Shown here: one piece after another, positions 1 to 4,770 of the stretch | Position numbering within the stretch: position 1 is the stretch's first letter | How the letters are laid out: each line of letters opens with the position of its first letter | Origin: Gemella sp. | GTDB lineage: Bacteria > Bacillota > Bacilli > Staphylococcales > Gemellaceae | Length of the DNA stretch: 64,000 bases | Reading direction: 5' to 3' | Assembly (NCBI GenBank): GCA_030529855.1 | Contig: JAUMWC010000001.1 | Location: 94,823 to 158,822 of the forward strand | Notes under the pieces: generated by a model | What the model was told of the DNA's origin: nothing | Database searches by the model: none | The model's input: only the letters and a program-made list of their open reading frames with translations | Position numbers and translations under genes: made by a program

Positions 1-323
1 CTGCTGGTGTTAATGCTGTATCTTCTAACACTTCAACTGGCGTTGGTTTTGGATCAAACTTAGTTGTATCTTTTGGTATTACCCTTACTGGTACTTCTAC
101 TTCATCAGTTGTTCCGTCTGGGTATGTTACTACTACTGTTACTGTTCCTTTGTCAGTTGTTTCTTGCGTTCCATCTGGTAAGTCTGTTCCTGGGATTGTT
201 GATGGATCTTTTACTGTTACTTTAGTTCCTTCTGGTAATCCTGTTGTTGGTACTGCTTTTTCGATGTCTGCTGGTGTTAATGCTGTATCTTCTAACACTT
301 CAACTGGCGTTGGTTTTGGATCA
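1..323 (-). repeat. Tandem Rib/alpha-like repeat with identical DNA
   Basis: Positions 1-56 are identical, base for base, to 268-323, and the match may continue past the window edge. The offset of 267 bases is exactly 89 codons, so the reading frame is kept. The repeated segment encodes DPKPTPVEVLEDTALTP, the junction between successive Rib-like domains. More copies are likely to the left. Confidence 0.85.
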
Positions 324-3300
324 TTTACAGTTGCATCAGTTGGCGCATACTTGATTGGTGTATCTGGTGTTCCATTCACTGGTGCATCTGGAGCAATATA
401 TCCTTTTGTTGGATCGTTTGGATCTACTTGTGGTAAAGTTTTTCCATTTTCATCTTTTGGTACATATCCTTCTACGTATGGTAGTGTAGGCTTGTCAGTT
501 GGAATTACTTTTGTTGGATCTGTTGGATCGTTTTTGTATTGTGTTTCTGTTACTGAACCATCTGGGTTTGTCACAACGAACTTACCGATTGGTGAGTACT
601 TAATCACTTGTGTATTGTCTGTGCTTGTTTCTGTTACTCCAGTTACTTCATCAGATGTAGCTTTCTCAGCTAAGAATCCTGTAACAACTGGTGTTGGTTT
701 TGCTTCAAATGTTGTTGAATCTGTAGTAGCCCAATCAGTGTAAGTAACTGCACCCGTTACTAAGTTGATAGTCGCTTTTCTAGTAAATGTTGCAGAATCC
801 GTTTTATCTGGAGCTACTGCTACATCTACTGGAGTAGTTCCATCTGCTAATGTGTACTTGATTGTTTGATTTACAGTTTTGCTTAAGGCATCAACAGTTA
901 CACCTGCTGGTGCTTGAGTTGGATCTGTAATTTCTACAGTTTTTTCTCTTAATTTAACTACAAATTCTTGAGTTACTGCTGGAGTATCTACTTTGTTGTC
1001 AAAGTTTTTGTCAGTTGCTGCTGTAAATCCATCTTCTACTAATTCGTAGTTTTGAGCTTCGTATTCAGCAATCTTAGTTGCTGTATCATGAGCAATTACA
1101 GTTCCCGGTAATCCTGTTACAGCTGGTGAAGTTTCTTTTACTTCAATTTCTTTACCATCTTTGTCTACAACTACATATTTAACTGTAGATTTTTGTTCTG
1201 CTTGGTAAACATATGTTACTGTTTGTGCTTGATCAGTTACTGTTCCGTTTTCTTCAGCTGATCCATCTTTAAGTGGTTTAGCTTCTACTAGGACATACTT
1301 AACTCCATCTTGTTCGATTACTGGTAATTTTACATCTGCTGATACATTATACTTTGTCCCAACTTGAGTTCCATCTGCTTGTACTTCTTTTGGAGTTCCA
1401 ATAGATGTTCCATCTACAGTTTCGTAGTTAACTGTTACTGGCTTACCTGGTTTCGGTACGTAAGTGTAAGCAACTATAGTTTCCTCGTTTGTTAATGTAC
1501 CTGTAGTGTTTGTTGGTTTTGTTGCCGATAACACATAAGTTAATCCTGTTGTTTTATCAGTTAATTCAGCTGGTGCTACAACATCACTTACATCATACGT
1601 TTTACCTGCAAGACTTGTAAATTCGTCATTATGTTGACCATCGTATTTAGTTGGTGTTGGTGATTGTAATTCAGTATCAGTTCCTTCAATTTGATAAATT
1701 ACATTTACAGAACCAAATTCAGCTTTCTTGTAGTTAGCTACTAAGTTAGCTTGGTTAAGGAATACTGTACCTGCTGTTTGTGAGTTTGGATAGTACTTGT
1801 TGTCAGTTGTGTACTTAGTGAATAAGTAGTAGTTTCCAGCCTCTGTTTTGATTACATATGGTACTGTTGTTGTATATGTTTTTACATTATCCGGTGTTGT
1901 AATATCTACTGGTGTGTTTGGATCAGTTGATGTTCCTACTTTAGTGAAATCTTCTGTTGGCGTAACAGAAGTGTACTTAGATTTACTAATTTCTGCTGGG
2001 TCTTTCGTATCAATTACCGCTATAGATGGACGTAATATTGCTCCATTCGCCTCATTGATATAACGAACAACAAGGTTACCGTTAATTGCTGGTTCTCCAG
2101 TTACCGTTGCACCACTAGATGGTTTTCTAACTTGCCATGTAACAGGCGCTTGATTAACAGTTGTAATTGTTTGACCATCTGGACCAACTGCCGTCAGTGT
2201 TGCTCCTTTTGGCGAAGCTATATTATATCTTAAAGCCGGTGTTGGAAAACCTTCATCGATAAAGGCTTGTGTTTTAGTTGATATTACACGGTCAAATCCA
2301 TAAACTCCTGCTCGTGGTCCTTGCTCTAATGTTTTTGAAATATTATATCCAGGAGTCAAGTCTCCTCTTACTACTTCTAATACTAATGTATTATCAGTTA
2401 CTGATACTGGTTTTAATACTACTTCTGTAGAACCTAGTGAATCTCGTAAAATAACGTTATTCGTATTTTCTTGTCTTACTGCTAGATCACCTGCCCAAAC
2501 AGAAAACTCTTTAAATTCTCCTGTCTGTACAAACTTAGAAAATTCAGTTTCTTTTAATGTATAAGTTATTCTACTTCCTTGAGGTATAGTAAGATTCCCT
2601 GTGTTAAATTGAATATTAGAAGTTCTTGCAAGAATATTTTTTCCTGTTTCATCTACAGAAATAATCCCACTTGATGCTGCAGATGTTCTTCCTCCAGTTG
2701 CTGGTGGTTTAATCTCTTGTCCTTTAGCTACATAAGGTGCTACTGCAACATCAACACCATTTACTATTAATTTACCATTAACATTTTTATCAACTGTAAC
2801 ACCAGGAAATCCAGTATTTCCATTAAAGGTATAAGTTAATTTTGTATCCTTTAATCCTACAATATTCTCATTGAATGTATAAATATACTCTGTTTTAGGT
2901 GCTTCTGCTGGAATATTTAGAGCATGTTTTTCTTCTAGAGTAGTTGTTCCAGAACCAGCAGCTCCACTTGGTGATGTCCCGTCACTTGTTGCTGTTACAC
3001 CAACATTGTTTAGTGCACGCGTTGTTAACGTAGCATATACAATACCGTCATTTGATTCTAATTGTTTTGGCATTGTTGGGAATACCCCTATTTGATCAGA
3101 AACAATAGTAAGCGTTTCTCCAGCTTGGTAAGCTCCTTGTGGAATGTTAATAGTGAAGTTTACTGTAGTTGCAGGTTGAGTACCATCAACAGTATTTACA
3201 CTAGCATCTACTATTACTTTCCCTGCTTGAACACCTTGAACTTCGGCTAGTGACGCTGCTTCTGGTGCTTTCTCCACTACTGGAGGGTTAGTCACTGTAT

Positions 3301-3643
3301 CTTCAACAGATTTATCTGTAACTACCGGTGATGATTTTGGAGTAGTCCCTTCTGTTGTTGCCTCTCTTACTAAAGCCCCAACTTCTTTTGCTTCCTTAGA
3401 TACTGGAGTTGGTGATTCAACAGCAGTGTTTTGTGTATTTGTAAATTCTGGTTTCAGCTCTGAGTTTTGTGCTGTGTTTTGATTTTCAACACTTGATGTT
3501 GGTGCAGGTATTTCTGCCGGTGTTGGTTCTGCAGCTTGTGCATTTGCCCCAGCAAAGAATACTCCCACTAAAGCTGAAGCGACACCAAATGAATATTTCT
3601 TAATTGAGAAACGTTGTTTGGTTTCATTATGCTTATTAAACAT
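1..3643 (-). CDS. YSIRK-signal, repeat-rich cell-wall surface protein (C-terminus beyond window)
   Basis: Large surface adhesin, 1214 codons visible, open at the left edge so no anchor motif is seen. The start ATG at 3643 follows an AGGAGG ribosome site at 3655-3650. Residues 11-35 form a YSIRK-type signal (RFSIKKYSFGVASALVGV), known to direct secretion at the septum in Gram-positive cocci. A Pro/Thr/Glu/Val-rich linker follows, then an adhesive region to about residue 640. Residues about 640-820 are tandem MucBP-like modules (VNYETVDGT, VTYVYQ), about 900-1010 resemble a Mub B2-like domain (FTRKATINLVTGAVTYTDW), and from about 1107 Rib/alpha-like repeats (YPDGTTDEVEVPV) begin. The family is normally sortase-anchored; that is inferred here. 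Its ligand cannot be told from sequence. Confidence 0.9.
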   Translation of the reverse strand, partial: MFNKHNETKQRFSIKKYSFGVASALVGVFFAGANAQAAEPTPAEIPAPTSSVENQNTAQNSELKPEFTNTQNTAVESPTPVSKEAKEVGALVREATTEGTTPKSSPVVTDKSVEDTVTNPPVVEKAPEAASLAEVQGVQAGKVIVDASVNTVDGTQPATTVNFTINIPQGAYQAGETLTIVSDQIGVFPTMPKQLESNDGIVYATLTTRALNNVGVTATSDGTSPSGAAGSGTTTLEEKHALNIPAEAPKTEYIYTFNENIVGLKDTKLTYTFNGNTGFPGVTVDKNVNGKLIVNGVDVAVAPYVAKGQEIKPPATGGRTSAASSGIISVDETGKNILARTSNIQFNTGNLTIPQGSRITYTLKETEFSKFVQTGEFKEFSVWAGDLAVRQENTNNVILRDSLGSTEVVLKPVSVTDNTLVLEVVRGDLTPGYNISKTLEQGPRAGVYGFDRVISTKTQAFIDEGFPTPALRYNIASPKGATLTAVGPDGQTITTVNQAPVTWQVRKPSSGATVTGEPAINGNLVVRYINEANGAILRPSIAVIDTKDPAEISKSKYTSVTPTEDFTKVGTSTDPNTPVDITTPDNVKTYTTTVPYVIKTEAGNYYLFTKYTTDNKYYPNSQTAGTVFLNQANLVANYKKAEFGSVNVIYQIEGTDTELQSPTPTKYDGQHNDEFTSLAGKTYDVSDVVAPAELTDKTTGLTYVLSATKPTNTTGTLTNEETIVAYTYVPKPGKPVTVNYETVDGTSIGTPKEVQADGTQVGTKYNVSADVKLPVIEQDGVKYVLVEAKPLKDGSAEENGTVTDQAQTVTYVYQAEQKSTVKYVVVDKDGKEIEVKETSPAVTGLPGTVIAHDTATKIAEYEAQNYELVEDGFTAATDKNFDNKVDTPAVTQEFVVKLREKTVEITDPTQAPAGVTVDALSKTVNQTIKYTLADGTTPVDVAVAPDKTDSATFTRKATINLVTGAVTYTDWATTDSTTFEAKPTPVVTGFLAEKATSDEVTGVTETSTDNTQVIKYSPIGKFVVTNPDGSVTETQYKNDPTDPTKVIPTDKPTLPYVEGYVPKDENGKTLPQVDPNDPTKGYIAPDAPVNGTPDTPIKYAPTDATVNDPKPTPVEVLEDTALTPADIEKAVPTTGLPEGTKVTVKDPSTIPGTDLPDGTQETTDKGTVTVVVTYPDGTTDEVEVPVRVIPKDTTKFDPKPTPVEVLEDTALTPA

Positions 3644-3702
3644 ATTTTTCCTCCTAAAATTCTAGTTTATATTATTATGAATATATTATACCCATTATCC
3701 AT

Positions 3703-3731
3703 ATTTTACCCCCCCCCTTAGTTTTTGTCAA
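3703..3731 (-). promoter_or_regulatory. Surface-protein promoter with G9 tract in the spacer
   Basis: On the minus strand TTGACA (3731-3726) and TAAAAT (3708-3703) are separated by exactly 17 bases. The last nine of those spacer bases are an uninterrupted G run (plus-strand C at 3709-3717). The arrangement places transcription start near 3697, about 54 bases before the surface-protein ATG. Slippage in the run would change the spacing away from the optimum. Confidence 0.8.
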
Positions 3732-3826
3732 GCATATTATAAATACTTATTTAAGTAGTTTTCAGTTAATTTTATATCGGATATTTTATAACCCCGTTAT
3801 AATCACGTTTTATTAAAATCCGCATA

Positions 3827-3875
3827 TAAAAAAAACACTTCACATGTTGGTTCAAACAGTGAAATGTTTTTTTTT
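3827..3875 (-). terminator. Terminator of the PhnD-like gene
   Basis: Arms 3831-3843 and 3859-3871 pair with one mismatch, and the minus-strand copy ends in a long U tract at 3835-3827. It separates the lipoprotein gene from the surface-protein promoter. Confidence 0.75.
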
Positions 3876-3879
3876 ATTT

Positions 3880-4770
3880 TTATTTAACTTTTGCTAAATC
3901 AACATTCATAGATTTTGCAGTTTCTTCAACTTTTTTGTAGGCGTCTTGGTCGATTTCTTCAAATCCTGTAATTGAGAATAATTCTCCAAATAACTTCATT
4001 GTTTCTTCATCTTTTTGAATTTCTAATAAAGCAGCTTTAAGTTTAGCTTGTGTATCTTTATCTAAGTGTTTTGAAGCTGTTACTGTTATTGCTGGGATAA
4101 GATCACTTGTAGTAATAACTTTTACTTTATCTTGAGCATCTGGGAAATCTTTTTTGTATCTTGTTAGAGACGTTTCAAAAGTTCCAATTGCATCTACTTC
4201 ACCGTTTAATAATAATGAAATAGATTTATCATGCCCACCAGAGAATTGACTAGTGATATCTTTCTCTAAAGATAATCCTTCTTTAACTAAAGATGCCCCT
4301 GGGTAGATGTATCCAGAAGTTGATGTTGGATCAACAAATGCTACCTTCTTACCTTTTAAATCAGCTACTGAGTTTATACCAGAATCTTTTTTAGCAAGAA
4401 TTACTGATTTATATCCTGTAACTCTATCTTTATTTCTAGTAACTAAGATTGGCTCCGCTCCTGATTGTTGTTTCGCTAAGATTGTCGCAAACGGTGGAAT
4501 TATACCAAAATCAACAGATCCACTGTTAATTCCTTCTACTACACCAACATAGTTTGATGCTACAAAAGCCTCAACTTTAATTCCTAGCTTCTCACTTAAC
4601 TTATCTGCTAATGGCTTAATTTCCTCAACTAGTTTTTCACTATTTTTTGTAGGAACGAATCCCATTTTCAGAACTTTTTCTTCTTTCTTTTCTGCTGCTG
4701 TTGGAGTTTGATTCGAACATCCAACTAGTACCAGTAGAAATGAAGTTAATAAAATTAGTAATTTCTTCAT
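3880..4770 (-). CDS. phnD: PhnD-family phosphate/phosphite/phosphonate-binding lipoprotein
   Basis: 296-residue extracellular substrate-binding lipoprotein of an ABC importer. The N-terminus is a lipoprotein signal with lipobox LVGC at about residues 15-18, so the mature protein would be tethered by Cys18. The body reads as a PhnD-type periplasmic-binding fold (GFVPTKNSEKLVEEIKPLADKL near the start, then GSVDFGIIPPFATILA and KKVAFVDPTSTSGYIYP). Known relatives bind phosphonates, phosphite or other oxyanions; the substrate is not fixed by sequence. No permease or ATPase gene is adjacent, so this is an orphan component here. It has its own promoter, an AGGAGG ribosome site and its own terminator. 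Confidence 0.85.
   Translation of the reverse strand: MKKLLILLTSFLLVLVGCSNQTPTAAEKKEEKVLKMGFVPTKNSEKLVEEIKPLADKLSEKLGIKVEAFVASNYVGVVEGINSGSVDFGIIPPFATILAKQQSGAEPILVTRNKDRVTGYKSVILAKKDSGINSVADLKGKKVAFVDPTSTSGYIYPGASLVKEGLSLEKDITSQFSGGHDKSISLLLNGEVDAIGTFETSLTRYKKDFPDAQDKVKVITTSDLIPAITVTASKHLDKDTQAKLKAALLEIQKDEETMKLFGELFSITGFEEIDQDAYKKVEETAKSMNVDLAKVK

Follow-up and report, generated by a model that had tools for sequence, protein, structure and literature searches.

A poly-G promoter spacer upstream of a YSIRK surface adhesin gene in Gemella: a candidate phase-variable promoter with counterparts in Streptococcus

The Neisseria genes porA, opc and fetA carry a poly-G/C tract between the -35 and -10 promoter elements, and changes in its length shift the ~17 spacing of these elements and thereby transcription. 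The nearest described Gram-positive case is the T tract of the Streptococcus pyogenes Spy1336/R28-Spy1337 region, which ranges from 8 to 13 T in about 2,000 isolates; transcript and protein rise from 9 through 10 to 11 T, and one-base indels alter their levels (PMC7098570). The same report cites a T tract 99 nt upstream of the GBS bca gene. Promoter-region repeats are reported to tune adhesin or surface-protein expression at Neisseria nadA and nspA (PMC2791445, PMC6389960) and Helicobacter sabA (PMC2715451), and the sortase-dependent pilus of Bifidobacterium breve, a Gram-positive surface structure, has an ON/OFF replication-slippage switch (PMC9187656). The words "spacer" and "spacing" are absent from a 2025 phase-variation review (PMC11868660), and a genomic account of Gemella surface proteins describes YSIRK, MucBP and Rib proteins and contains neither "phase" nor "homopolymer" (PMC7136413). 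A literature search, subscription papers aside, found no report of a poly-G spacer device in Gemella or its family or in Streptococcus, in agreement with the initial annotation, which knew of no description in this group.

The locus considered here lies in a 64,000-nt stretch of Gemella DNA (the window; its genome is G000 below), and its features, all on the minus strand, are as follows.

3880..4770, minus strand: phosphonate-binding (PhnD-like) lipoprotein gene, the adhesin's neighbour (domain and synteny comparison)
3825..3875, minus strand: A/U hairpin carrying a U-run; likely terminator that sets the adhesin promoter apart from the phnD-like gene upstream
3731-3726, minus strand: -35 element TTGACA (direct sequence reading and promoter scan)
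3725-3709, minus strand: 17-nt spacer AAAACTAAGGGGGGGGG (direct sequence reading and promoter scan)
3717-3709, minus strand: nine-G tract in the -10-proximal half of the spacer, abutting the -10 element (sequence reading)
3708-3703, minus strand: -10 element TAAAAT (direct sequence reading and promoter scan)
3644..3660, minus strand: ribosome-binding site AGGAGGA and start context (sequence reading)
1..3643, minus strand: surface adhesin gene with YSIRK signal, MucBP, MucBP_2, Muc_B2 and Rib matches (domain matches and extended-sequence reading)

A promoter with consensus-like elements, a 17-base spacing and nine G residues had been proposed from the sequence, and this description is exact at 3731-3703; the promoter, TTGACA-AAAACTAA-G9-TAAAAT, matches the consensus at 11 of 12 positions in a promoter scan. 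Both the scan and direct reading place the homopolymeric tract between the -35 and -10 elements; the window adhesin promoter has no T tract of the R28/bca type, its tract being G and lying within the core promoter.

The gene downstream, which starts with the ATG at 3643 preceded by AGGAGGA, has the features of a surface adhesin, as had been supposed: its YSIRK signal scores 35.4 bits against PF04650 (cut-off 20), and a domain search finds adhesin-type MucBP, MucBP_2, Muc_B2 and Rib repeats. It extends ~760 bases past the window start to a total of 1468 codons in the assembly, a length that includes a run of N in the assembled repeat region. The C-terminus resembles a cell-wall sorting signal and consists of LPKTS, a hydrophobic stretch and RRRKED (AAAGLLVSRRRKED), with S in place of the G of LPXTG, and a paralogue on contig C28 with the same type of ending exceeds the Gram_pos_anchor cut-off. 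Sorting signals in the genus Gemella are LPKTS or LPKTQ rather than LPXTG (window adhesin L240:860-1000; L243:1613-4027; L244:1435-2550).

The phnD-like gene is probably closed by the hairpin at 3825..3875, which a simple terminator scan missed and which was found by its folding z-score of -4.4. With this strong hairpin and its U-run as the likely end of the upstream gene, the adhesin probably relies on its own promoter. At the syntenic locus of the nearest relative (G001), a PhnD 88% identical to that of the window lies beside the same dehydrogenase and there is no adhesin, so that adhesin and promoter were gained or lost as one unit. Other promoter-like matches occur nearby (a TATAAT at 3690-3685 and CTGAAA-18-TATAAT at 3765-3736), and it might be argued from them that the tract is hypermutable while the gene is governed mainly by a second promoter or a regulator, slippage then having little phenotypic effect. 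However, these matches score lower (no more than 10 of 12), their number is within chance (4 vs 2.7 +/- 1.6), the TATAAT at 3690 has no -35 element, and none fits the consensus as well as the tract-bearing promoter does; control from elsewhere is thus very unlikely.

The nine-G run, unusual in an AT-rich genome according to the initial annotation, is the only G/C run of at least 8 in the window; in the whole 1.61-Mb genome a single G9 is unremarkable, since a first-order Markov model trained on the window and applied to both strands puts the expected number of runs at ~0.5 for length 9 or more, 0.1 for 10 or more and 0.004 for 12 or more. What is surprising is the position of the long G runs. 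Only four G/C runs in the genome reach a length of 8 (they measure 9, 9, 10 and 12), and all four sit in TTGACA-Gn-TANAAT spacers before YSIRK or YSIRK-like genes. They are listed here with the three other promoters of this kind found in the genus.

G000, window adhesin: G9, spacer 17, -10 element TAAAAT
G000, C19 gene: G9, spacer 17, -10 element TATAAT
G000, C28:29.9k: G10, spacer 19
G000, C28:48.1k: G12, spacer 21, -10 element TATAAT
G001, congener: G11, spacer 20, anchored YSIRK protein
G002, congener: G10, serine-rich repeat-type protein with a KxYKxGKxW signal
G003, congener: G11, 2214-aa YSIRK protein, single-contig genome

PF04650 has 16 matches in G000, four of them behind a G-tract promoter; hence a quarter of the YSIRK genes carry the device. 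Downstream of the G10 promoter, the YSIRK-like gene (C28:29787-29900, L242:1177-1395) is open for 72 codons only and is followed by a short ORF in another frame; it may be frameshifted or small. Other YSIRK-like surface genes have A or T runs of 14-17 some 65-200 nt upstream, at C21:589, C17:12775, C23:560, C5:6020 and C34:24109 of G000 (L200, L204, L208, L356, L360) and at C23:85146 of G001 (L216). A/T runs of at least 14 number 10 in the genome against ~1 expected, half of them preceding surface genes, and could possibly form a second class of phase-variable promoters with the tract upstream of the -35 element. These A/T tracts resemble the nadA/nspA/sabA type more than the window G tract does.

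The seven promoters come from a search of 157 genomes of the order with the pattern TTGACA-N4-10-G8-N0-6-TANAAT. All seven matches are in Gemella (four in G000, three in as many congeners), none is in the sister genus or the other families of the order, and the reversed pattern, used as a control over the same 157 genomes, gave none. Their tracts span 9-12 G and their spacers 16-21. With the threshold lowered to six G, no spacer of this kind in the family proved to hold a tract of 6-8 G, and tracts here are therefore either long or absent. One spacer in G002 (GGGGTAGGGG, L224) is interrupted and may be a locked relic. That an ordinary constitutive promoter should have acquired its G run by chance, or through a sequencing or assembly artefact, would be no surprise for a lone G9 in 1.6 Mb (about 0.5 expected), but the four long runs share position and gene class, congeners repeat the arrangement (a single-contig genome among them) and the controls are zero. 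Chance and artefact were rejected on the position of the runs and the zero controls, and seem the most improbable of the explanations considered.

One pair of homologous promoters within the genus differs in tract length: G12 (spacer 21) at C28:48.1k of G000 and G11 (spacer 20) on C26 of G001. The two have in common the core TTGACA-AnAATGTTC-Gn-TATAAT, and the surrounding intergenic DNA has diverged. This comparison covers one genome per species, and its tract lengths, read from assemblies, may be off by one. No strain variant of the exact window promoter was found among viral contigs.

Among 399 sampled genomes of the class Bacilli, matches occur only in Gemella and Streptococcus. In the latter there are 65 such promoters in 39 of 284 genomes (control 0), and 39 of the 58 genes downstream have signal-like N-termini, several with YSIRK motifs; exceptions include galE-like and cytoplasmic-looking genes. 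Near-identical promoters, counted only where each of the two 110-nt flanks reaches 94% identity (range 94-100%; a cut of 0.75 yields many unrelated AT-rich pairs), form 14 pairs in seven groups, and tract length differs in 10 pairs and five of the seven groups: 10 vs 8 with identical flanks, 12 vs 10, 10/11/8, 11 vs 10, and 10 vs 8. This comparison is direct evidence that the tract changes faster than the DNA on either side of it. The galE-like gene of L348, L349 and L354 also lies downstream of a promoter with a poly-G spacer of variable length (8 vs 10 G), which suggests that surface sugars may be phase variable as well. One Streptococcus promoter (G756:C274) carries the 33-mer TTGACAAAAATGTTC-G12-TATAAT, identical to that on C28 of G000. 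Horizontal transfer was considered for it and rejected, since the gene downstream is unrelated to the adhesin, and the identity is taken as convergence of a constrained sequence.

Taken together, these observations argue that the adhesin is probably expressed under slipped-strand, promoter-spacer phase variation, on the principle of Neisseria porA. The candidate phase-variable promoter of the initial annotation is in this sense well supported: the other three long G runs of the genome are placed just as this one is before YSIRK-type genes, family tracts of 9-12 G without any of 6-8 include a homologous promoter with 12 vs 11, and the tract changes by 1-3 G between near-identical promoters of Streptococcus. 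The tract is judged to be non-random and of hypermutable length, with 9-12 G in four runs where about 0.5 were expected, all of them in such spacers. We infer from these patterns the switch itself, a length change that alters transcription, together with slippage, an effect on expression, reversibility and a benefit. In the mechanism proposed, a poly-G/poly-C run would gain or lose single bases by slipped-strand mispairing during replication, and each one-base change would shift the -35/-10 distance by one and rotate the two elements by ~35 degrees relative to one another. The housekeeping sigma factor should engage them better at 16-18 nt and less well otherwise, and each cell lineage would make more or less of the mucin-binding/Rib-type adhesin, the change being random, heritable and reversible. 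With independent tracts at four or more surface-protein genes, a population would be a mixture of adhesin combinations. In the sequenced clone the window gene and the C19 gene (TATAAT, 17) are predicted to be ON and the genes with spacers of 19 and 21 to be low.

A scan of 84,980 species extends the pattern, the matches listed including Clostridia, Saccharibacteria, Ancillula, Treponema, Streptobacillus and others. Of the 61 genes downstream of these listed matches, 43 encode a signal-like N-terminus, as judged by a simple hydrophobicity rule of our own, compared with 84 of 325 other ORFs of the same DNA (p = 5e-11). The run is G on the sense strand in all 65 Streptococcus promoters and all four of the window genome, C in none; in 40 genomes from the wide-scan matches listed the summed counts are 223 G and 1 C, and as these genomes were picked for having a G match the G:C ratio is biased, while the absence of C is not. 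Were spacing alone relevant, sense-strand poly-C should work equally well, and it is almost absent. This near-total polarity is not foreseen by spacing alone and speaks against the phase-variation reading, as does one genome (G803, that of L093, Clostridiales SIG415) with 32 near-identical promoters of the form TTGACAA-nnGGCT-G9-TAGAAT before secreted proteins. Almost all of these, many of them near contig ends, have exactly G9, so a tract spacer need not always vary, and in some organisms the tract may be a constant part of the promoter.

Both observations would suit a sequence-specific promoter class in which the G tract, read by a sigma factor, by a regulator or through the shape of the DNA, marks out the members of a regulon of secreted proteins, its length variation being incidental. 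A fixed site would keep its length, whereas spacers in the genus run from 16 to 21 with tracts of 9-12 and Streptococcus near-twins differ by 1-3 G; moreover, only four of the 16 YSIRK genes have the tract. A fixed class is accordingly an unlikely explanation for the window adhesin, and phase variation through the spacer remains the preferred one. As to its breadth, it is about as likely as not that sense-strand poly-G spacers are a widespread phase-variation device that has evolved repeatedly in host-associated bacteria, Gram-positive and other, and is present as genome-wide sets (four promoters here; in Ancillula, Streptobacillus and some Clostridia about 22-32) before genes for secreted or anchored proteins, with a near-absolute polarity implying that the G tract does more than set spacing.

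If phase variation is correct, adhesin display in commensal Gemellaceae would be a stochastic mixture set by single-base slippage, and the same would hold for ~1/7 of Streptococcus species, including S. suis-type genomes; vaccine-antigen and adhesion studies on one clone would be confounded. The tract is readable from sequence, and ON/OFF states could therefore be scored in existing reads. The strand polarity in turn raises a testable question, namely how sigma factors read spacer sequence.

The arrangement is like that of Neisseria porA, opc and fetA in that a homopolymer occupies the -35/-10 spacer of a surface-protein gene. It differs in its low-GC Gram-positive hosts, in the consensus TTGACA, in the set of cell-wall-anchored YSIRK adhesins that it precedes and in having G always on the sense strand, whereas Neisseria also uses poly-C. 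At nadA the tract reportedly sets the spacing of repressor operators around the promoter rather than lying in the -35/-10 spacer. The B. breve pilus switch is similar in that replication slippage governs a Gram-positive surface structure, but it reportedly lies in coding sequence and is translational. R28 and bca share with the window locus a homopolymer upstream of a YSIRK/Rib-Alp surface-protein gene; the R28 tract, however, is of T in a divergent regulatory region with an AraC-type regulator, and is neither a poly-G spacer nor part of a multi-locus set. Promoter-spacer phase variation is thus known in principle, and what is new here is its apparent occurrence in this family, marked by the strand polarity of the tracts and their multi-promoter organisation.
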